Assembly: GCA_900696535.1 (NCBI GenBank)
Contig: CAADGM010000236.1
Span: 1 to 64,000 of the forward strand
DNA length: 64,000 nucleotides
Source of the DNA: an uncultured Planctomycetota bacterium
GTDB taxonomy: Bacteria > Planctomycetota > Phycisphaerae > UBA1845 > Fen-1342
Direction: 5' to 3'
Position numbers and translations under genes: made by a program. A model generated the notes under the pieces. It was not told the DNA's origin. It made no database searches and saw only the letters and a program-made list of their open reading frames with translations. Shown here piece after piece: positions 14,605 through 25,395 of the stretch (position 1 is the stretch's first letter; the number at the start of each line of letters is the position of its first letter).

Positions 14605-15741
14605 CTAGACGTCGCGGTTGTCGGCCGACGCCGGTGAAGCACGCCGCTCCCCTGCGGAGGGCGGCCCGGACCGCGTGCCCCGATGACCAAGCTCAGCGAT
14701 AAACGACTCGATCGCTTCGACGGCCTCGCGCCGCCCGTTTCGCGCGGCACAGCGAATGTGCGCGTGGAACCGCTCCTCCTCGGCCAGGAACGCCTGGAGG
14801 TGGTCGACCGAGAAGTCCCGCCAGCGCACCGCCCGGCCGAACCCACGTCGCTCCAGCGAGGCCGCGTTCAGCCGCTGCTCCACGCACTGCTCCGGCATCA
14901 CGAGCATCGGCTTGCCCAGGTGCACGGCCTCCCCCACGAGCTGGTTGCCCGCCGTGCTGATGATCGCCCGGCAACTGGCCATGTCCTCGACGAACGGAAC
15001 GTTGCTCATCGGACGATACGCGATCAGGCCGTCCGCGCCCTGCCGCGGCGTGCCGTACACGCGGCACGGGAGCCCGCTGGCTTGCAGGGCCCGCTCGATG
15101 TGCGGCGCGTACTGGTAGGCCCCCTTGTTGAAGTAGACCAGCAGGTGCTGACCGCGGCTCGGCTCGGCCGCGAGCACCTCGTCCCGCAGCAGCGGCCCGA
15201 CCACGCGCACGCGCGGCCAGCGCGGCTTGGCATGGTAGAAGCTCGACACGATGATCCGGTCGGGCTTGCCCATCAGCCAGCGGTACACCAGCACGTCGCG
15301 GCGGCTGCGAATCCGGTCGCCAAAGGGGATGTGCGGCTTGCAGTACACCATCACGCCGAAGTGGTCGAAGCCGATCCGGGGGATTCCGAGCCGGCGAGCC
15401 GCGCGGTGCATCCACGGCTCGGCATCGCTGATCACCAGGTCGGGAGCGAAGTCGGCCACCGCCTCACACACCTGCCGGAACTGTGGCCCCCGCAGGAGCA
15501 TGTCGAGCACGCTCCACGCGTTCTCGCGCGCCGTGAGCCAGCCGGAGATCGCCCCCCGCCGCGTGTACCGGTAGCCGATCGTCGGTATCCGCGACACCGG
15601 GTACTCGGGGCTGAGCTGGTCATAGGCGTCGCCGCCGGCGAACAGGCGCACGGCGTGTCGCCGGCACAGCTCAGGCAGAACCGCGGCGGCCCGCGTCGCG
15701 TGGCCGCGCCCGTAGCCGAAGATGCCGTAGGCGATGCGCAT
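14605..15741 (-). CDS. GT-B glycosyltransferase, MurG-superfamily (MJ1255/DUF-type), not canonical MurG
   Basis: The 378-residue product opens with MRIAYGIFGYGRGHATRA, a variant of the nucleotide-sugar GT-B opening motif (MurG has GGTGGH), and its C-terminal half carries IISTAGNQLVGEAVHLGKP...PEQCVEQRLNA, the counterpart of the MurG donor-binding motif with a final HQxxNA-like block. This fits glycosyltransferase family 28-type proteins of the MJ1255/VC2487 group, which use a nucleotide sugar to glycosylate lipids or carbohydrates. It lies 96 bases downstream of ftsW, the usual place for murG. It is not clearly MurG: the MurG lipid I-binding GGS loop is missing, and sequence is closer to the MJ1255 group. 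Acceptor unknown. The last 25 residues are Arg/Ser/Pro-rich. Confidence 0.82.
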   Translation of the reverse strand: MRIAYGIFGYGRGHATRAAAVLPELCRRHAVRLFAGGDAYDQLSPEYPVSRIPTIGYRYTRRGAISGWLTARENAWSVLDMLLRGPQFRQVCEAVADFAPDLVISDAEPWMHRAARRLGIPRIGFDHFGVMVYCKPHIPFGDRIRSRRDVLVYRWLMGKPDRIIVSSFYHAKPRWPRVRVVGPLLRDEVLAAEPSRGQHLLVYFNKGAYQYAPHIERALQASGLPCRVYGTPRQGADGLIAYRPMSNVPFVEDMASCRAIISTAGNQLVGEAVHLGKPMLVMPEQCVEQRLNAASLERRGFGRAVRWRDFSVDHLQAFLAEEERFHAHIRCAARNGRREAVEAIESFIAELGHRGTRSGPPSAGERRASPASADNRDV

Positions 15742-15837: not shown

Positions 15838-17190
15838 TCACGCGACTGGCGCGGCTTCCCGGCGCCCGACCGACGCCAGCAGCCCGGCGGCCAGCCCCAG
15901 GAACACGACACCGGAGCCGCCCGCCGACACGAAGGGTAACGAAATGCCCTTGGTCGGGACACTGTTTGTCACGACGCCCACATTAAAGGCCGCCTGCAAG
16001 CAAATCGTGAGCGTGAGCCCGCCCGCCAGCAGTTGTCCGAAGCGCCCTGGAGCCCGTCTCGCCAGCCGCCAGCCCCGCCACAGGAACAGCAAGAACAGGG
16101 CCACGATCGCGAACCCCCCGGCCGCACCCAGCTCCTCGCAAATGATCGCCAGGATGAAGTCGTTGTTGTCCTGCGGCAGGTAGCCGTACTTCTGCACGCC
16201 GGCGCCGAGTCCCCGCCCCCACCACCCGCCGGAGCCGATGGCCAGGAGGGCCTGGTCGACCTGGTAGCCGGCCCCCATCGGGTCGGGGGCTTCCGAGAGA
16301 AACGTCGTCACGCGGGTCACCCGGTAGGGCTCCATGATGACGAGCCCGACCGCCGCCACGCCCCCCAGGCACATGAGCGAGAGGAGGTGCAGCCAGCGCA
16401 CCCCGGCGATGAACAGCATGATGAACCACACGACGCCCATGAGGGCCGCGGTGCCGAAGTCCTCGATCGCCGTGAGCCCGATCATCAGTCCCCCGCTCAG
16501 CACCGCGGGTAGAAAGCTGCGCGTCAGGCTTCGTGGATCCACGTGCTCGATCACCGTGGGGTCAACGCGCTCCCGTCGCGCCGGCCGCGCGGGCGGTGCC
16601 GGCGGGGCGGCTCGCCCGCGCCGAGCCCGGGCAGGAAGCGCCGGCTCGCGCAGCGGCGACTCCGGCATTCGGCGGCTCGCGGGCCGGGACAGCAGGGCCG
16701 CGGTCCAGACAACCAGCACGACCTTGGCCAGCTCCGAGGGCTGAAAGCCGCGACCGAGTCCGGGGATGAAGATTTGGCGCCGCGCGCCGAGCACCTCGCG
16801 CCCGATCCCCGGAACCAGCACGCCCACCAGCAGCGCCACGGTCAGCAGCACGAGGACAACCACCCGCCAGCCGTCGCCCGGCCGCTCCCAGGCCAGCACG
16901 CGATGATCGACGTGCGCCGCCGCGATCATGACCGCGAAGCCGACCAGCGCGAAAACACCCTGCCGCAGCGGCGTGTCCCACCACTGCCGCCAGTCGAAGG
17001 GGGCCGACTGCACCGACGTGGAGGCGGAGTAGACCATCGCGACGCCCAGCGTCATGAGCACGCCGGCGATGAAGACGATCACCGGGTCATAGCGCCGGGC
17101 GGGGCCAGGTGCGGCGAACAGGCTCGTGGGCTGGTCAGACAGGATCGGATCCTCGTGCGGCGCGGGACGGACGCCGGCCGGCCCGGCCAA
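15838..17190 (-). CDS. ftsW: FtsW/SEDS peptidoglycan polymerase
   Basis: FtsW polymerises lipid II glycan strands at the division site together with its cognate PBP (FtsI). The 450-residue protein has about ten helices and the SEDS signatures FQPSELAKVVLVVW near residues 149-162 and GLPLPFVSxGGS-like GISLPFVSAGGSG near the C-terminus; EDFGTA is also conserved. Between two helices there is a Pro/Arg-rich cytoplasmic loop of about 55 residues (169-225), longer than in typical FtsW. The TTG start at 17190 lies only 3 bases after the mraY stop, with no clear ribosome site, so start choice is uncertain; the first 33 residues add little. RodA is a less likely alternative given the dcw location. Confidence 0.9.
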   Translation of the reverse strand: MAGPAGVRPAPHEDPILSDQPTSLFAAPGPARRYDPVIVFIAGVLMTLGVAMVYSASTSVQSAPFDWRQWWDTPLRQGVFALVGFAVMIAAAHVDHRVLAWERPGDGWRVVVLVLLTVALLVGVLVPGIGREVLGARRQIFIPGLGRGFQPSELAKVVLVVWTAALLSRPASRRMPESPLREPALPARARRGRAAPPAPPARPARRERVDPTVIEHVDPRSLTRSFLPAVLSGGLMIGLTAIEDFGTAALMGVVWFIMLFIAGVRWLHLLSLMCLGGVAAVGLVIMEPYRVTRVTTFLSEAPDPMGAGYQVDQALLAIGSGGWWGRGLGAGVQKYGYLPQDNNDFILAIICEELGAAGGFAIVALFLLFLWRGWRLARRAPGRFGQLLAGGLTLTICLQAAFNVGVVTNSVPTKGISLPFVSAGGSGVVFLGLAAGLLASVGRREAAPVA

Positions 17191-17193
17191 CGC

Positions 17194-18342
17194 TCAGCGT
17201 AACTTGATCGTGGCCAGCGCGAAGGCGGCAAAAAGCGCCGCCAGGAGCCAGAAGCGCATCACCACCTGCGTCTCGGTCAGGCCGCCCAGGTGGTAGTGGT
17301 GGTGCAGCGGCGCGCAGCGGAAGATCCGCCTGCCAGTCAACTTGTAGTGGTAGATCTGGAGGAGGACCGAGATGGCCTCGATGACAAACACGCCGCCAAC
17401 GATGAAGAGCATCAGCTCCTGGCGTGTGACGATGGCGACGTAGCCGATCAGGCCGCCCAGCGGCAGGGCCCCCGTGTCGCCCATGAACACCTGCGCTGGA
17501 TAGGCGTTGAACCACATGAAGCCCAGGCACGCGCCAACGATCGCCCCGCACACCACGGCCAGCTCGTTCGTGTACGGAATGTAGAAGAACAGCAGCTTTC
17601 TCGAGACCGTCGCGTCCCCGATCACGCACGCGAGCACCATGAACGCGAACGCCGTCAAGACCATGCACCCGCTGGCCAGACCGTCCATCCCGTCCGTCAG
17701 ATTGACGGCGTTGGACGTGAAGGCGATGACCAGCACCGCGATGACCACGAACACCGGCGTGGCCAGAGGCAGAGCCTGCTTGACGAATGGGACGCTGAAG
17801 ATGTTGTAGTTGGCCGAGTACGTCACCTGCGGGTCATGCCAGCGGGCGCGCGTCTCGTTCGTCTCCCCGTGCCGCAGGATGAATACCGCGAGGAGCACGC
17901 CCAGCGCCACCTGAAAGACCAGCTTCTCCCACATGCGCAGCCCGTCGCGCGTGCCCGCCCGCCGGGCCGCCGTCAACTTCAGCCAGTCGTCCACCCCGCC
18001 CAGGATCGCCAGCCAGACCAGGCAGAACAGCGCCATGACAATGTAGAAGTTGGACAAGTCCGCGAGCAGCAGCAGCGACGCCGCGATGGCGATCACGATC
18101 AGGATGCCGCCCATCGTGGGCGTGTTGATCTTGCCTCTCATGATCTCGTTGAGGGCCTGGTGGTCGAACTCCGGCCGGTCGCCGATCTTCAGCTTCACCA
18201 GCCAGCGAATCACCGTCGGGCCGAGCAGCCAGACGACGAAGAAGCCGAGAATGGTGGCGGCGGTCGCGCGGAACAGCACGCTGTCCATGGCGTAGTTCGT
18301 CGGCTGGAAGCCGACCCACCACCGGTGAAGCAGGTAGAGCAT
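17194..18342 (-). CDS. mraY: Phospho-N-acetylmuramoyl-pentapeptide transferase MraY
   Basis: MraY links UDP-MurNAc-pentapeptide to undecaprenyl phosphate to give lipid I in the inner membrane. The 382-residue protein has about ten helices and all catalytic landmarks: KINTPTMGG near the N-terminal cytoplasmic loop, LGGVDDWLK (the DD pair), NAVNLTDGMDGLASG, FMGDTGALPLGG, and the LHHHYHLGG histidine loop. Length is slightly above the usual 360 residues. It sits between murF and ftsW with gaps of three bases on each side, so it is certainly within the same operon. Confidence 0.97.
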   Translation of the reverse strand: MLYLLHRWWVGFQPTNYAMDSVLFRATAATILGFFVVWLLGPTVIRWLVKLKIGDRPEFDHQALNEIMRGKINTPTMGGILIVIAIAASLLLLADLSNFYIVMALFCLVWLAILGGVDDWLKLTAARRAGTRDGLRMWEKLVFQVALGVLLAVFILRHGETNETRARWHDPQVTYSANYNIFSVPFVKQALPLATPVFVVIAVLVIAFTSNAVNLTDGMDGLASGCMVLTAFAFMVLACVIGDATVSRKLLFFYIPYTNELAVVCGAIVGACLGFMWFNAYPAQVFMGDTGALPLGGLIGYVAIVTRQELMLFIVGGVFVIEAISVLLQIYHYKLTGRRIFRCAPLHHHYHLGGLTETQVVMRFWLLAALFAAFALATIKLR

Positions 18343-18345
18343 GGA

Positions 18346-19776
18346 TCAGGGAGCGGCCGTGGCCGCCAGCCTTTCCTTCAGCGGCGCCACCACGCGGTCC
18401 AGCGCGACCGCCCGTGACGCCTTGAGCAGCACCACGTCGCCCGGCTGAACGCCCTCGGCCAGCCGGGCCGTGCACTCGTCCACGTCGGCGACGCGCTCCA
18501 CGCTCGGGCCGAAGAGCGCGCCGTCGCCCAACAGCTCGTACATCGGGTCGGTTGCGGACCCCACCAGCACCACCCGGTGCAGCCCGGCGGACCGGATGCG
18601 CTCGGCCACCCGACGGTGCAGCGCCGCCGACTGCCGCCCCAGCTCGCGCATCTCGCCGAAAACGAGGATCCGCCGCCCCCGGCAGGGAAGCTGCTCGAGC
18701 GTGTCGATCGCCGCCAGTGCGCTCGACGGGTTCGCGTTGTACGCGTCGTTCACGATCGTGATCCCCCCCACTTCCACGATCTCGTTCCGCATCGGCGGCA
18801 GGACGAAACTCTCCAGCCGCACGGCCGCTTCGTCGTAGTCAAACCCCAGCCGCCGGGCGATCGTCACCGCCCCCGCCGCGTTGACCGCGTTGTGCGCCCC
18901 CGGCAGGCGCAGGCGAAACGCGAACCGCTCGTTGAGCCGGAAGCTCAGCCAAGGCGCGGCATACTGCACGTCCGAGAGCCGCACGTCCGCGTTTGCCGCC
19001 CGGCCGAACGTGACCACGTGCGTCGAGCCGCCGGGCGCCGGCAGGTGCCTGCGAACCTCGGGGCTGTCAATGTTCACCGCGGCAAAGCCCTTGCCACGAA
19101 GCTTATCGAAGATCGCGCACTCCTCGGCGGCCACGCCTTCGAGGCTGCCCAGCCCCTCGAGATGCTCCTCGCCGATGCAGGTCAGCACGGCCAGATCCGG
19201 GCGGGCCAGCCCACCCAGTTGGGCGATCTCGCCCGGGCGGTTTGTCCCGATCTCGACCACCAGGTACTCGTCGCCCTGCTGTGCGGACAGCAGCGTGAGC
19301 GGCACACCGATGGCGTTGTTGTAGCTCTTGGGCGACGCGCGGCCGCGGAGCCGACCCGAGAGAATGTGGTGAATCATCGCCTTGGTGGTGGTCTTGCCGT
19401 TGCTGCCGACGACCGCGATCACCTCGGCCGCGCTCAGGCCGCGATGGTATGCGGCCAGGCGCCCCAGGGCCGCCACCGTGTCATCAACCTCGATCAGCAG
19501 CGCGCCGCGCGCCTGCGGCACGCCCGACTCGCGGAGCTGAGCCTCGACCCTGCCGACCTGCGCCCCCGCGACCACCGCCGCCACGGCGCCGCGCCGCAGC
19601 GCCGCCGCCACGAAGTCGTGCCCGTCGTAGCGCTCGCCGGGAATCGCGAAGAAGAGATCGTCCGGCGTGGCGCTGCGCGAGTCGGTCGATACGCCGCCGA
19701 CACTGACCGTCGGCAGCTCGCCCCAGGGCCGGCCCCGCATGGCCTCCACGACCTCGGCCAGCGTCAGCTTGATCAT
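18346..19776 (-). CDS. murF: UDP-N-acetylmuramoyl-tripeptide--D-alanyl-D-alanine ligase MurF
   Basis: MurF adds D-Ala-D-Ala to UDP-MurNAc-tripeptide in the cytoplasm, using ATP. The 476-residue protein has the Mur ligase three-domain order: N-terminal UDP-binding domain (VSTDSR near residue 29), central ATPase with VVGSNGKTTTK (about 122-132), a GTNRPGEIAQL motif, and the NDAYNANPSSALAAID motif at the start of the C-terminal part. The stop is three bases before mraY, and the ATG overlaps the murE stop by four bases, so translation is coupled with murE. Confidence 0.97.
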   Translation of the reverse strand: MIKLTLAEVVEAMRGRPWGELPTVSVGGVSTDSRSATPDDLFFAIPGERYDGHDFVAAALRRGAVAAVVAGAQVGRVEAQLRESGVPQARGALLIEVDDTVAALGRLAAYHRGLSAAEVIAVVGSNGKTTTKAMIHHILSGRLRGRASPKSYNNAIGVPLTLLSAQQGDEYLVVEIGTNRPGEIAQLGGLARPDLAVLTCIGEEHLEGLGSLEGVAAEECAIFDKLRGKGFAAVNIDSPEVRRHLPAPGGSTHVVTFGRAANADVRLSDVQYAAPWLSFRLNERFAFRLRLPGAHNAVNAAGAVTIARRLGFDYDEAAVRLESFVLPPMRNEIVEVGGITIVNDAYNANPSSALAAIDTLEQLPCRGRRILVFGEMRELGRQSAALHRRVAERIRSAGLHRVVLVGSATDPMYELLGDGALFGPSVERVADVDECTARLAEGVQPGDVVLLKASRAVALDRVVAPLKERLAATAAP

Positions 19777-21293
19777 GCCTTCTCTCCCGCCACAGGCTCC
19801 AGCGCCTGCGCCGCCGCCATCGCCACCTCCGCGTCGTCGAAGTGGATACGCTCCGAGCCGATGATCTGATAGGTCTCGTGTCCCTTCCCCGCGATCAGCA
19901 CGACGTCGCCGGCCCGCGCGTCCGCCAGCGCCGCGCGGATCGCCCGGGCGCGATCGACTTCGACGCGCGTCCGCTCGCGGTCCGCGGCGGTCAGACCGGT
20001 GAGGATCTCTGCGACGATCGCCTCGGGGGCTTCACTTCTCGGGTTGTCACTGGTCACGAACAGCTCGTCCGCAAGCTCCGCCGCCACGCGCGCCATGCGC
20101 GGCCGCTTCGTGCGGTCCCGGTCCCCCCCGCAGCCGAACACGACGCGCAGCCGGCCGCGCGTCAGCGGCCGCAGCGCGCCGAGCACGTTTCGCAGGGCGT
20201 CGTCACTGTGCGCGTAGTCAACGAACACGTCCGCCGGACACGCACACGGCACCCGCTGCAACCGCCCCGGTACCGCGCGCAGCGCCGACAGGCCCGCTGC
20301 AATCGCGTCCCAACTCACGCCCACCGCCCGCGCCAGCCCGGCGGCGCACAGCGCGTTGTACACGTTGTGTCGACCTACCAGCGCACTCTGGACGGTGACC
20401 TCGCGACCCTCGGCCGCCAGGCGATACGTCGTCCCCGCGCTGCTGCTGCCGACGATCGTCGCATGCAGGTCCGCATCGTGCTCGATCGCCACCGTCAGCA
20501 CACGCGCCGGACACTCGCGCAACATCTCCTGGTGGTGCGGATCATCGCGATTGACCACCGCGACCGCGTCAGCGCGCAGCCGCGCGAACAGCCGCGCCTT
20601 GGCGGCGCAGTACCGCTCCAGTGTCCCGTGATAGTCGAGGTGATCACCGCTCAGGTTCGTGAACGCTGCCGCCGTGAACCGCAGCCCGTCCGTGCGTTTC
20701 TGGTCCAGCGCATGGCTGGACACCTCCATCACCGCGGCCTGCGCACCGCGCGCCTGCGCCTCGGCCAGGCAGGCCGCCAGCTCCAGCGCGCCCGGCGTAG
20801 TATTCGTCGCGGTCACGGCGCGGCCACACAGGTCGTAGTGCATCGTGCCCAGCAGGGCACAGCGCACGCCCGCCGCCTCGAGGATGGCGCGCGTCATGAA
20901 CGTCGTCGTGCTCTTGCCATTGGTGCCCGTCACACCCAGCAGCACCAGGCGGAGTCCCTCGCCCGCCAGCCCATGCCAGCGAACGGCGAGCTCGGCCAGG
21001 GCCGCGCGGACGTCCGGGACCTCCACGCGAGCCGCACTGCCCGTCTCCGGCAGGTCAGTTCCGACGATGGCGACCGCCCCCCGCGCAAGCGCATCCGCGA
21101 TGAATCGGCGCCCGTCCGCCCGCTCGCCCGGTACGGCGACGAACAGCCCGCCTGGCCGCACGCGACGAGAGTCGTCGTAGACCCCCGTGACACGCACGGC
21201 GCCGAGCGCCGCGCGGTCGCCCGCGATCGGCAGGTCGGCCAGCAGCGCGACCAGCGGAAGGCTCCGTCCTTCAATCTCCGACGGCGTCGACAT
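19773..21293 (-). CDS. murE: UDP-MurNAc-L-alanyl-D-glutamate--2,6-diaminopimelate ligase MurE
   Basis: MurE adds the third peptide residue. The 506-residue protein has the P-loop GVTGTNGKSTT (about residue 120), the Mur ligase segments EVSSHALDQKR and NLSGDHLDYHG, and near the C-terminus SDNPRSE. The DNPR tetrad is the motif known to select meso-diaminopimelate over lysine, so the peptidoglycan is predicted to be meso-DAP type (A1gamma). The gene overlaps ftsI by 23 bases at its start (ATG inside the ftsI end) and murF by four at its stop. This makes it part of the coupled mraZ-ftsW unit. Confidence 0.97.
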   Translation of the reverse strand: MSTPSEIEGRSLPLVALLADLPIAGDRAALGAVRVTGVYDDSRRVRPGGLFVAVPGERADGRRFIADALARGAVAIVGTDLPETGSAARVEVPDVRAALAELAVRWHGLAGEGLRLVLLGVTGTNGKSTTTFMTRAILEAAGVRCALLGTMHYDLCGRAVTATNTTPGALELAACLAEAQARGAQAAVMEVSSHALDQKRTDGLRFTAAAFTNLSGDHLDYHGTLERYCAAKARLFARLRADAVAVVNRDDPHHQEMLRECPARVLTVAIEHDADLHATIVGSSSAGTTYRLAAEGREVTVQSALVGRHNVYNALCAAGLARAVGVSWDAIAAGLSALRAVPGRLQRVPCACPADVFVDYAHSDDALRNVLGALRPLTRGRLRVVFGCGGDRDRTKRPRMARVAAELADELFVTSDNPRSEAPEAIVAEILTGLTAADRERTRVEVDRARAIRAALADARAGDVVLIAGKGHETYQIIGSERIHFDDAEVAMAAAQALEPVAGEKA

Positions 21294-23106
21294 CCTGTCT
21301 TCGCTCTCCAGCGCTCGGCTGCGGAGGTTTGCGCCCCGCGGCGCCCGACTTCCTGTCCCCTGCGCTCAGTTCAGGCGGAACCTGCATGTACGCCAGCGTC
21401 TCGGCCAGAATCTCCTTGACCACCGGCGCCGCAACGACCCCGCCGTAATACCCGCCCCGTGTCGGCCTGTAAATCGAGCACACCGCCACGACGCGCGGGC
21501 GGCCCGCGGGCGCGCCGCCCACGAACGACGCCACGTAGCCGCCGCCGTAGCCCTTCCCCTGCAGGCCGGCGATCTGGGCCGTGCCTGTCTTCCCGAATAC
21601 CTGCCAGTCCTCCAGCGCCGCCATCTTCCCGGTTCCCGTGCGTACCGCCTCGACGAGGGCCGCGCGGCGGAAGAGCTCGCTCGTCTCGGCGCTGATCACG
21701 CGGCGGATCGGAATGGGCGTCGAGTCGTCACGGAGCGTTTGCCCGTCGGGACTGATGACACCGCGGATGATCCGCGGGCGCAGCAGCACGCCGCCGTTGC
21801 AGAACGCGCTGAACGCGGTGACGACCTGGATCGGCGTGACGGCCAGCTCCTGGCCAATCGGGATCGATTGCGGCGAGAAGGAAGGGTTCCAGTCCGCCAG
21901 ATCCCGTACCTGCCCCTCGTGCTCGCCGGGCAGCCCCAGTCCGGTCACATCGCCGAAGCCGAACATGCGAACATAACGAAAGAGCCGGTCCATCCGGCAA
22001 CGTGCCCCGAGCAGGCCCATTCCGATGTTGCTCGACTTGCTGATGACCTCGTGCAGCGCGAGTTGGCCGTAGGGGTGCGTGTCGCGGATGGTGCGCTTGC
22101 CGAAGCTGCGTACCGGGCCGTTGATGACGAAGACCTCGTCGATGCGCGTGAGGCCTTCGTCGAGCGCCTGGGAGGCGATGAACGGCTTGAAGATGCTGCC
22201 CGGCTCGTAGGAGTCCGAGACGGCGCGATTTCTCCAGATCTCCGCCGCCTTGAGCTGCTGCTCCGGCGACATCTCGTTGAAGCCCTTGGGCAGCGGGTTC
22301 GAAGGGTCAAAGTCCGGGACCACCGCCATGGCCAGCACCTCCCCCGTGTGCGGGTCCATCACGACGACCGCCCCCCAATCCGCGGCGTACTTTTCCACCG
22401 CCGCGCGAAGCTTGTCCTGCGTCACCTGCTGGATGTACGCGTCGAGGGTCAGGACGACCGAGCCGCCGTCCTCGGCAGGCTCGAGCGATTCGGCCCGGAC
22501 ACGACGGCGCGAGACATCGACGGTCGACGTGGCCCGGCCTGGCCTTCCCGCCAGGATATCCTGGCAACCCTGTTCGATGCCGGCCAGACCCTGGAGATCC
22601 GCACCAACGAAACCGATCACGTGCGGGGCGACGCGCCCCTGGGCGTACACGCGCACCGGCTCGTACTGCACGCCGAACGCCCGCAGTCGGCGAGCGCGAA
22701 GGAACGCCTCGAAGTCGCGAACAAAGTCGGTCTCGTTCTCGACCTCCAGCGTGCGGGCCAGCCAGGCAAAGCGGCGCTCGCGGTTCTCCACGAGCAGGTT
22801 GTACAACGCATCCGGGCTAAGCTTCAGGTACGGCGCCACGCTCTCGGCGGCGTAGCGCGCGTCCTGTACCAGGTATGGATCGACGTAGACCGACGGGCGC
22901 AGGATCGTGCCCGCCAGCACGCGGCCGCGCGTATCGATGATCTCTCCGCGAACCGCCGGAATGATGCGCGTGGTGGTCTGCTGTCGCGCGGCGCGTTGCC
23001 TCAGCGTCTCGCCCTGCGTGGACTGGATGTACGCCAGCCGCCCGGCGCCGCCCGCGAGCAGGACGCCGACCAGCAATGTCACCAGGCCCGCACTGCGCGT
23101 TCGCAT
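21271..23106 (-). CDS. ftsI: Peptidoglycan D,D-transpeptidase FtsI (PBP3)
   Basis: FtsI is the septal transpeptidase that cross-links glycan chains made by FtsW. The 611-residue class B PBP has an N-terminal membrane helix (7-25), a pedestal domain beginning RGEIIDTRGRVLA (53-65), and the transpeptidase domain. The active-site motifs are complete: SxxK at S304-K307 (GSIFK), SxN at S358-N360 (SSN), and KTG at K506-G508 (GKTGTA). The tail after residue 580 is a Lys/Arg/Pro-rich extension. I see no PASTA domains. It lies between the ftsL-like gene and murE, the standard dcw position, and overlaps murE by 23 bases. Confidence 0.96.
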   Translation of the reverse strand: MRTRSAGLVTLLVGVLLAGGAGRLAYIQSTQGETLRQRAARQQTTTRIIPAVRGEIIDTRGRVLAGTILRPSVYVDPYLVQDARYAAESVAPYLKLSPDALYNLLVENRERRFAWLARTLEVENETDFVRDFEAFLRARRLRAFGVQYEPVRVYAQGRVAPHVIGFVGADLQGLAGIEQGCQDILAGRPGRATSTVDVSRRRVRAESLEPAEDGGSVVLTLDAYIQQVTQDKLRAAVEKYAADWGAVVVMDPHTGEVLAMAVVPDFDPSNPLPKGFNEMSPEQQLKAAEIWRNRAVSDSYEPGSIFKPFIASQALDEGLTRIDEVFVINGPVRSFGKRTIRDTHPYGQLALHEVISKSSNIGMGLLGARCRMDRLFRYVRMFGFGDVTGLGLPGEHEGQVRDLADWNPSFSPQSIPIGQELAVTPIQVVTAFSAFCNGGVLLRPRIIRGVISPDGQTLRDDSTPIPIRRVISAETSELFRRAALVEAVRTGTGKMAALEDWQVFGKTGTAQIAGLQGKGYGGGYVASFVGGAPAGRPRVVAVCSIYRPTRGGYYGGVVAAPVVKEILAETLAYMQVPPELSAGDRKSGAAGRKPPQPSAGERRQDVDAVGD

Positions 23107-23127: not shown

Positions 23128-23394
23128 TCAGGGCTTGCCGCGCCGCGGCGTCTGCGGCGGGGCCTCCATCCACTCCTGCATCGCCTCGTTGAGCTGCTGC
23201 CGCATGACCATCGGGTTGCGGCGCCGGGCCTGCTCCAGCTCGGCTTCGCGAAGCTGGTGGCGCAGCACGTCGATGCGTCGCTCGTCGCGCGAGGTCTCGA
23301 AGTGCAGCCGCGCGGTCTCGGAACGCAGCACGACGACCAGCAGCATGAGCGCGAGCCCGACCACGAGCACCACGACCATGCGCAAGAGCGTCAC
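23128..23394 (-). CDS. ftsL: FtsL-like bitopic division protein
   Basis: An 88-residue protein with one N-terminal membrane helix (about 4-24, VVVLVVGLALMLLVVV) followed by a charged amphipathic, heptad-like helix (SETARLHFETSRDERRIDVLRHQ). The size, topology and position immediately before ftsI are those of FtsL, which joins FtsB and FtsQ in the divisome and helps activate FtsI/FtsW. FtsL sequences are poorly conserved, so the call rests on layout and context. No ftsB or ftsQ is adjacent. Confidence 0.75.
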   Translation of the reverse strand: MTLLRMVVVLVVGLALMLLVVVLRSETARLHFETSRDERRIDVLRHQLREAELEQARRRNPMVMRQQLNEAMQEWMEAPPQTPRRGKP

Positions 23395-23435: not shown

Positions 23436-24467
23436 TCAGGTTCCGCGCGACCCGCGCGGCGCCGCCTCCGCGTCGTCCGGAAGGCGGATCCGCGCGCCCG
23501 GCACGATCCGGTTGGCGTCGAGGTTCTTGTTGATCTTCACGATCTCGCGCCACCGGTTCGGGTCATCCAATTCGCGCCGCGCGATGCTCGCCAGCGAGTC
23601 GTTCTTCTGGATCGTATACCAGCGCGGCGACGCTGTCCCGGCCTTCTTCGGCTCGGCGGCCGACGAGGCCACGCGCCCCCCACCCACACCGCTGTCGCCG
23701 CGCGCGGGCTTGTCCGGCTTCGCCCCTCGGTCGGACCGGGCCACCGCGCTCTGACTGACCGTCGTCGGCGCCGGCGGAACCGTGATCACCTCGCCGGCCC
23801 GCACGCGCCCGTCACGCTTTGCCAGGCTGGGATTCGCCTTCATCAACAGCTCAATGTACCGGGCCTCGCGCGAGCCGTAGTACTGGGCCGCGATACGGGT
23901 CAGCGTCTCGCCCCGCGCCACCTCGTGCCGCTGCCCCGGCGAACCCGCCGCGCCTGCCTGCGGCGCCACCTCGCTCGCCACCTCCGGCGCCAGCGGCTGC
24001 ATCGCGACCGAGACGCCGTCCGGCGGGACCACCGGTCCGGTCGCTCCGTCCTCGCCACGCGGGCTCGCATCGCCAAACGCCGCGTCCGCCGTCACGTCCT
24101 CGAGCGCCAGCGCGACGTCGACCGCCCGGACGCGCGGCGGAAGCACGATCGGGATCAACTCGACACCACCCGCGCCGGCCACACCCGCGACCGCCGGGGC
24201 CGCCTCGTCGCGAAACTCGGCCACGGCCTGCCGATCCACAGCGCTGCGTCGCGCGAGCTGCCGCACCCACGACTCGCGCGGCCCCTCCATCGCCAGCGGC
24301 GCGGAGGGCTGCTGGACCGGCGCATCGACCCGTCCGCGCGGTTCGTCGAACCCCTGCCACGCGACCGGCCGCTCGATCTCCGCGATCTCGAAGCGACCCA
24401 GCACGAGTCCGGCGATGCCAATGATCGCCGCGCACATGAGCACGGCCGCCTTGACGTTGAGCCCCAT
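23436..24467 (-). CDS. Membrane-anchored double-LysM protein in the dcw cluster
   Basis: A 343-residue protein with an N-terminal helix (about 4-22, VLMCAAIIGIAGLVLG), a long low-complexity periplasmic stretch, and two LysM domains: one around residues 185-230 (GETLTRIAAQYYGSREARYIELLMKANPSL) and one at the C-terminus (about 285-330, KNDSLASIARRELDDPNRWREI). LysM binds GlcNAc-containing glycans, so it likely tethers to peptidoglycan. It lies between rsmH and ftsL, a slot not usual in the dcw cluster. The ATG at 24467 has AAGGAGG five bases upstream; the GTG at 24485 is therefore not the start. Its function in division is an inference from position. Confidence 0.87.
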   Translation of the reverse strand: MGLNVKAAVLMCAAIIGIAGLVLGRFEIAEIERPVAWQGFDEPRGRVDAPVQQPSAPLAMEGPRESWVRQLARRSAVDRQAVAEFRDEAAPAVAGVAGAGGVELIPIVLPPRVRAVDVALALEDVTADAAFGDASPRGEDGATGPVVPPDGVSVAMQPLAPEVASEVAPQAGAAGSPGQRHEVARGETLTRIAAQYYGSREARYIELLMKANPSLAKRDGRVRAGEVITVPPAPTTVSQSAVARSDRGAKPDKPARGDSGVGGGRVASSAAEPKKAGTASPRWYTIQKNDSLASIARRELDDPNRWREIVKINKNLDANRIVPGARIRLPDDAEAAPRGSRGT

Positions 24468-24486
24468 GGACGCCTCCTTGCTCACT

Positions 24487-25395
24487 TCATGAATCCGTTC
24501 GCTCCGCCACGCGCATCTTGGCGCTGCGGCTGCGCGGGTTGGCCCCGCGCTCCGCGGGGTCCGCGATCACCGGACGCCGGGTAACCTCGATGAGCCGCCC
24601 CGCGGCACGCCCGGCGCGGAACGCTTCCTTCACCAGCCCGTCCTCCAGGCTGTGGAAGCTGATGATCGCCAGCCGGCCGCCCGGCCGAAGGTAGTCCAGA
24701 GCAACACGAAGGAACTCGCGCAGGCTGTCCAGCTCCGCGTTCACCGCGATCCGCAGGGCCTGGAACACCCGCGTCGCCGCGTGCGTCTTGCCGCCAGCCT
24801 CCAGCGCGCCGTAGACCGACTCCACCACCCGCGCCAGGGCCAGCGTCGAGGAGATGCGCCCGCCGTGCCGCACCTGGCAGATGCGCCGAGCGATCTTCCG
24901 CGAGAGCCCCTCCTGAGCATTGAAGTAGAACAGGTCAGCGAGCTCGCTTTCCGAGAGCCCGTTGACCAGGTCGACGGCCTTGCGGGCCTGGTTGCGATCG
25001 AAGCGCATGTCGAGCGGGCCGTCCTGCTCGAAGGAGAACCCCCGCAGCGGGTCGTCGAGTTGGGCCGAGTTCACACCCAGGTCGAGCAGCATGCGATCAA
25101 CCTGCCGCACTCCCAACTCCGCCAGCCAGCGTGGGAGCTCCGCGAAGTTGCCCTGCACCAGGTCAACGCCCGAGGGGAACTGCGACGCGATCCGCGCCCG
25201 TGCCGCGGCGAGCATCGTCTCGTCGCGGTCCAGCCCGATGTAGCGACCGCCCGGCATGATCAGTGGCAGCAGCGCCAGCGCGTGCCCGCCGAGCCCGATG
25301 GTGCCGTCGAGGATCACTTCGCCCGGTTGGGGAGCGAGAAGCGTAACGACTTGTTCCACGAGAACGGGTCTGTGCTCAGGCGGCGGCGAATTCAC
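24487..25395 (-). CDS. rsmH: 16S rRNA (cytosine(1402)-N(4))-methyltransferase RsmH (MraW)
   Basis: RsmH methylates C1402 in the decoding center of 16S rRNA using SAM. The 302-residue protein matches MraW: HRPVLVEQV at the start (residues 8-16), LDGTIGLGGHA as the SAM-binding loop, the DRMLLDLGVNSAQLD block, and IISFHSLEDGLVKEAFR near the C-terminus. Start is GTG. Length and motifs are standard. It sits downstream of mraZ after a 299-base gap, and 19 bases precede the LysM gene. Confidence 0.96.
   Translation of the reverse strand: MNSPPPEHRPVLVEQVVTLLAPQPGEVILDGTIGLGGHALALLPLIMPGGRYIGLDRDETMLAAARARIASQFPSGVDLVQGNFAELPRWLAELGVRQVDRMLLDLGVNSAQLDDPLRGFSFEQDGPLDMRFDRNQARKAVDLVNGLSESELADLFYFNAQEGLSRKIARRICQVRHGGRISSTLALARVVESVYGALEAGGKTHAATRVFQALRIAVNAELDSLREFLRVALDYLRPGGRLAIISFHSLEDGLVKEAFRAGRAAGRLIEVTRRPVIADPAERGANPRSRSAKMRVAERTDS

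Follow-up and report, generated by a model that had tools for sequence, protein, structure and literature searches.

A two-LysM membrane protein encoded between rsmH and ftsL in planctomycete division clusters, a candidate for an overlooked part of the division machinery

Planctomycetes are described as lacking FtsZ (PMC5147048, PMC12283558, PMC10632474), and their division without it is an open question. The locus studied here lies in a stretch of 64,000 nucleotides (the window) from an uncultured bacterium of the class Phycisphaerae, phylum Planctomycetota. An earlier note on this DNA had described a gene for a membrane-anchored protein with two LysM domains, inserted between rsmH and ftsL of the division (dcw) cluster, and had proposed it as a possible undescribed division factor of this lineage. 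The locus raises the question of whether this gene is a regular member of the cluster, and whether its product may work with the septal machinery encoded next to it.

Gene composition of the division cluster

The genes of the cluster are located on the minus strand in the order rsmH, LysM gene, ftsL-like gene, ftsI, murE, murF, mraY and ftsW:

24487..25395, minus strand, rsmH (mraW), upstream of the LysM gene (PF01795, 1.8e-87)
24473..24479, minus strand, Shine-Dalgarno sequence AAGGAGG, 5 nt before the ATG of the LysM gene (sequence)
23436..24467, minus strand, LysM gene, encoding a TM-linker-LysM2 protein of 343 aa (open reading frame, two Pfam LysM matches, AlphaFold, 60 orthologues)
24393..24461, minus strand, N-terminal transmembrane helix, residues 3-25, with ETKxGLLVGLxFIxxFA kept in most of the class (alignment, AlphaFold)
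23760..23921, minus strand, LysM domain 1, residues 183-236 (Pfam, AlphaFold)
23478..23618, minus strand, LysM domain 2, residues 284-330 (Pfam, AlphaFold)
23128..23394, minus strand, ftsL-like gene, 88 aa, transmembrane segment and helix (position, weak FtsL_2/DivIC matches of orthologues)
21271..23106, minus strand, ftsI, class B PBP, septal transpeptidase (PF00905, 3.1e-62, and PF03717, PBP_dimer)
19773..21293, minus strand, Mur ligase, murE by position
18346..19776, minus strand, Mur ligase, murF by position
17194..18342, minus strand, mraY (PF00953)
15838..17190, minus strand, ftsW, SEDS glycosyltransferase (PF01098, 8e-83; best NCBIfam match TIGR02614, ftsW)

The open reading frame 23436-24467 coincides exactly with the coordinates given in the earlier note, where the strand was left unstated; it starts with the ATG at 24467-24465 of the minus strand, 19 nt after the stop codon of rsmH. 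Coding on the plus strand of the same interval was ruled out, the translation being meaningless. The position between rsmH and ftsL was confirmed by the PF01795 match upstream and the 88-aa ftsL-like gene downstream. The product of the latter has no Pfam match when searched alone; its orthologues show weak matches to FtsL_2 (8 of 28) and DivIC (6 of 28), which makes 'ftsL' a reasonable label for this gene. Two transpeptidase genes are present in the source genome, and the one located in the dcw cluster is FtsI. Contamination or chimerism of the MAG (6% contamination) was rejected as the source of the arrangement, since dozens of independent genomes carry the same gene order.

After ftsW, where murG is expected, the gene 14605-15741 (minus strand) encodes a protein matching the MJ1255/VC2487 glycosyltransferase family at 1.2e-30, versus 1.7e-4 for the MurG model.

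Architecture of the LysM protein

The description of the product as a membrane-anchored protein with two LysM domains proved correct. Both domains were identified by Pfam (PF01476, 3.9e-12; 46.4 bits against a gathering score of 20.9), which counts as an independent check, since our own LysM search model was seeded from the window protein. LysM was found by Pfam in all 60 aligned orthologues. In the source family, only one recognisable LysM is present in 6 of 22 orthologues. AlphaFold models of the 60 orthologues contain the helix 3-25 (pLDDT ~95) and two beta-alpha-alpha-beta LysM folds (pLDDT ~96), joined by a Pro/Ala-rich linker of ~150 residues with low confidence throughout, i.e., disordered.

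The frequency of the majority residue is 0.57 in the first seven residues, 0.50 in the transmembrane segment, 0.45 and 0.54 in the LysM domains and 0.19 in the linkers. Thus, conservation of the N-terminus and the transmembrane helix is close to that of the LysM domains and well above that of the linkers, which points to the helix being more than a membrane anchor. The consensus N-terminus of the class, MTxETKIGLLVGLxFIxxFA, contains a GxxxG-like pattern of small residues that could be used for helix-helix contact.

Conservation of gene order in Planctomycetota

Conservation of the gene between rsmH and ftsL in relatives had been set beforehand as a test of the proposal. An unbiased anchor, rsmH, was used: 100 rsmH regions were drawn from genomes at the level of order, class and phylum, 40 more were added later, and intervals were counted where rsmH and ftsI share one stretch. 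A LysM open reading frame was found between the two genes in all 61 intact intervals of the class, comprising 22/22 from the source family, 32/32 from other families of the order and 7/7 from other orders, so the proposal passed this test. In other classes, the interval contains a LysM open reading frame in 5 of 82 cases, four of them from one family (f37), and the median rsmH-ftsI gap outside the class, 284 nt, has space for no gene but ftsL.

Named records were collected by a scan with an FtsI alignment. Among ten named loci of planctomycetes, nine, assigned to Phycisphaerales, Phycisphaerae, Planctomycetota, Planctomycetales, Schlesneria and Planctomycetaceae, carried the LysM gene in the rsmH-ftsI gap; in the tenth, from Planctomycetes bacterium DG_23, no LysM gene was found in this gap. 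None of the 62 intact rsmH-ftsI intervals in named non-planctomycete loci contained it. By its conserved position across genera, the LysM gene is a gene of the dcw cluster. The suggested restriction to 'this lineage' was not borne out: the gene spans the whole class and Planctomycetales.

Apparent absences were checked individually. The LysM gene proved to be present in genomes G007 and G011; in G237, the region without it (L121) contains a second copy of rsmH, and the rsmH copy of the dcw cluster (L301) has the LysM gene beside it. The stretch L103 ends too early to show the gene.

Two rsmH genes, one inside the dcw cluster and the other elsewhere in G237, were found in many planctomycete genomes (G237, G240, G249, G250, G252, G253, G257-G260 and others). 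In the distant planctomycete G063 (L278, 1366-3685), genes for an ftsL-like protein, an SH3-type secreted protein and a TM-LysM2 protein are located between rsmH and ftsI, an arrangement that reads as a second kind of insertion at this site. A scan of viral contigs with the LysM protein revealed no relative.

Linkage of the LysM gene to ftsL and ftsI

In genome G023, assembled as a single contig, rsmH (2.65 Mb) and ftsI (2.16 Mb) are ~490 kb apart. The LysM gene, with its conserved start MTAETKIGLLTGL, still precedes ftsI, the two being separated by an ftsL-sized interval; accordingly, its linkage is to ftsL-ftsI and not to rsmH. In G019, a member of the same order, no LysM gene was found after rsmH and no FtsI orthologue was detected (best match 31%, partial), which may reflect loss of a septal module. 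An ATGA-type overlap (gap -1) of the LysM stop codon with the ftsL start was found in 10 of the 50 orthologous loci with a recognisable ftsL open reading frame. Taken together, these three observations indicate that the LysM gene travels with ftsL-ftsI.

In G151 (L158), rsmH is followed by a gene for a transmembrane protein with a single C-terminal LysM, and no ftsI was found within the 6 kb read; here the LysM gene may have outlived ftsI.

Paralogue at the secDF-lptFG locus

The source genome encodes a second protein of this layout (L337, contig G000:C171, 5699-6835, minus strand), with a transmembrane segment (MRPELKVGLIVGV...), a Pro-rich linker and two LysM domains. Its gene is flanked on one side by a fused secDF gene and on the other by two lptF/lptG-like genes. 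Consequently, the TM-linker-LysM2 layout is not specific to division; it would be a device of general use for connecting membrane and wall, and the dcw protein one version of it. A similar protein is encoded after secD/F in G023 (L303).

FtsZ-less setting

No FtsZ/tubulin (PF00091) was found in 30 of the 31 genomes searched, including the source genome, in agreement with the published absence of FtsZ. The sole match (G013:C302:1288-1770, L270) belongs to a genome with 8% contamination and is probably foreign. An SPOR protein is present in each genome; the single one of the source genome has the appearance of a TPR lipoprotein (lipobox LASC) and not of a bitopic FtsN.

Comparison with known LysM proteins and divisome components

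The LysM protein was compared with families of similar composition, and none of them accommodates it. It scores 31.7 bits with the YneA model (NF010723), under the cut-off of 60; no M23 domain, as required for NlpD/DipM (LysM + LytM/M23), was found in any of the 60 orthologues; FtsN carries a C-terminal SPOR domain, whereas only LysM-type domains are present here and the SPOR protein of the genome is encoded elsewhere. The closest solved structures by LysM sequence include the potassium-binding protein Kbp (YgaU; NCBIfam PRK11198), but the score with PRK11198 is 54.9 against 134 bits and there is no BON match: Kbp is a soluble BON-LysM protein without a transmembrane segment or tether. As Kbp binds potassium, a LysM domain is no guarantee of wall binding.

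A precedent is offered by YneA of B. subtilis, the most thoroughly studied protein with this arrangement: its transmembrane helix binds TM7 of FtsW, bringing it to the septum, and its action needs peptidoglycan binding by LysM (PMC13396833). ChiZ of Mycobacterium tuberculosis is modelled in the same way. Both share with the dcw LysM protein one N-terminal transmembrane helix and LysM, which in YneA and ChiZ is extracytoplasmic, and both act on the septal FtsWI complex; however, they are short SOS-induced inhibitors with one LysM encoded outside the division cluster, while the dcw protein has two LysM domains, a 150-residue linker and a gene inside the division operon. FtsN of E. coli is a bitopic protein with a short cytoplasmic end, a long linker and a C-terminal wall-binding domain, which works with FtsWI (PMC9525312). 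The same layout is predicted for the dcw LysM protein, but FtsN has SPOR instead of LysM, its gene lies outside the division cluster and there is no sequence relation.

Within the PVC superphylum, a LysM gene was found exactly between murD and ftsW, adjoining ftsW, in 7 of 8 genomes of Verrucomicrobiota/Kiritimatiellota (L317, L318, L319, L320, L322, L326, L329), a sample reached only through ten named loci. The encoded proteins resemble the planctomycete one in being anchored by a transmembrane segment or as lipoproteins, in the Pro-rich linker followed by one to three LysM and in being encoded beside ftsW in the division cluster; they differ in the shorter LysM type, the other position in the cluster and the frequent lipobox. 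In the LysM-domain tree of Planctomycetes and Verrucomicrobiota, which contains too little signal to support common descent, LysM1 and LysM2 pair within Planctomycetales. Given the different LysM types and this tree, the genes of planctomycetes and of the sister phyla should be regarded as analogues at the least, and they are possibly not homologues.

In Chlamydiae, whose 'NlpD' gene lies between murD and ftsW, there is likewise a LysM protein in cells dividing without FtsZ. This protein, annotated NlpD (Waddlia NlpD, Cpn0902), is septal (PMC5147048, PMC6956297); it differs from the planctomycete protein in its place in the cluster and in its reported DD-carboxypeptidase activity (PMC4388811). 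NlpD and AmiA are reported to be absent from Planctomycetes (PMC5147048). The distribution suggests that, within the PVC superphylum, LysM proteins of the wall-binding type came to lie beside FtsW/FtsI on more than one occasion.

Possible function and alternative explanations

The divisome function proposed in the earlier note is the best reading of the synteny in the class, the linkage in G023 and the joint absence in G019, although an operon position is no proof of a shared machine. Against it also weigh the potassium binding of Kbp, the orthologues with a single recognisable LysM, the paralogue of this layout at secDF-lptFG and the dispensability of ftsI and ftsW themselves in Planctopirus limnophila, a member of Planctomycetales (PMC10632474). 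We lean towards the view that the dcw LysM protein of Phycisphaerae and Planctomycetales is a bitopic inner-membrane, peptidoglycan-binding, standing subunit of the FtsW-FtsI-FtsL septal complex; this is somewhat more probable than all else considered. The short N-terminus would be cytoplasmic and the LysM pair periplasmic. On the precedent of YneA, the conserved transmembrane helix would be the docking element, contacting FtsWI/FtsL as the YneA helix contacts TM7 of FtsW, and the flexibly tethered LysM pair would be the hand that grips glycan made at the septum. The synthase would thereby be held at, or gated by, the new wall in cells lacking a focusing FtsZ ring. By analogy, such a subunit would work in the manner of YneA/ChiZ or as a tether of the FtsN kind. 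That it activates or tethers rather than inhibits is no more than a guess, preferred since the gene shares a run of genes with ftsL-ftsI and in some genomes overlaps the ftsL start. A bolder version, in which the protein is an FtsN-like core activator and positional cue, its LysM pair reading new septal glycan and its helix recruiting and switching on FtsWI so that positive feedback from the wall, in place of an FtsZ ring, focuses wall growth, is possible but doubtful.

The same resemblance to YneA and ChiZ admits the opposite role, that of a negative regulator or checkpoint whose helix binds FtsW and whose LysM blocks septal synthesis until a condition is met. YneA has this layout, its peptidoglycan-binding LysM does block septal synthesis (PMC13396833), and the window protein matches its model weakly; however, the match stays under the cut-off, YneA and ChiZ are stand-alone, DNA-damage-induced and short (YneA model, 87 positions), and the dcw gene lies within the division operon and has a strong ribosome site of its own. 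For a standing operon member, a structural or activating role is favoured over inhibition, and we consider the checkpoint role improbable. A general tether between the inner membrane and peptidoglycan, merely co-expressed with wall genes and acting outside the divisome, is unlikely, if less so than a checkpoint: the paralogue at secDF-lptFG indicates that proteins of this type may work with any machine of the inner membrane or for the envelope as a whole, but the dcw gene stays with ftsL-ftsI after the departure of rsmH and is missing together with ftsI, and its helix is conserved in sequence and is not merely hydrophobic.

A regulator of wall hydrolysis or cell separation, recruiting amidases or lytic enzymes to the septum like chlamydial 'NlpD' or DipM, would fit the septal location of the former and the LysM genes in the same cluster of sister phyla. 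Against it stand the reported absence of NlpD and AmiA from Planctomycetes and the lack of a LytM/M23, other catalytic or amidase-activating domain in the 60 orthologues, which make this role very unlikely. Least credible of all is a hitch-hiker kept by inherited gene order without a functional link. Division clusters generally keep their gene order, but presence in every intact interval over several orders, despite a fast-evolving linker, and retention with ftsL-ftsI after the rearrangement in G023 speak strongly against it.

As an 'undescribed division factor', the protein is new in part. Among the papers searched, none joins LysM, dcw and planctomycetes, and LysM is never mentioned in those on PVC division and the planctomycete essential genome. 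Still, the LysM genes of sister phyla, the septal chlamydial 'NlpD' and YneA/ChiZ mean that it is not without precedent. Surveys of planctomycete division genes search for homologues of the known Fts set, in which a cluster member peculiar to one lineage and bearing the generic label 'LysM' is easily overlooked. The dcw LysM protein is a good candidate for such an overlooked part of the division machine, and for planctomycete division without FtsZ its gene offers one concrete conserved candidate beside ftsL-ftsI. Planctomycetales carry the gene as well, and P. limnophila, which is genetically tractable, belongs to this order.
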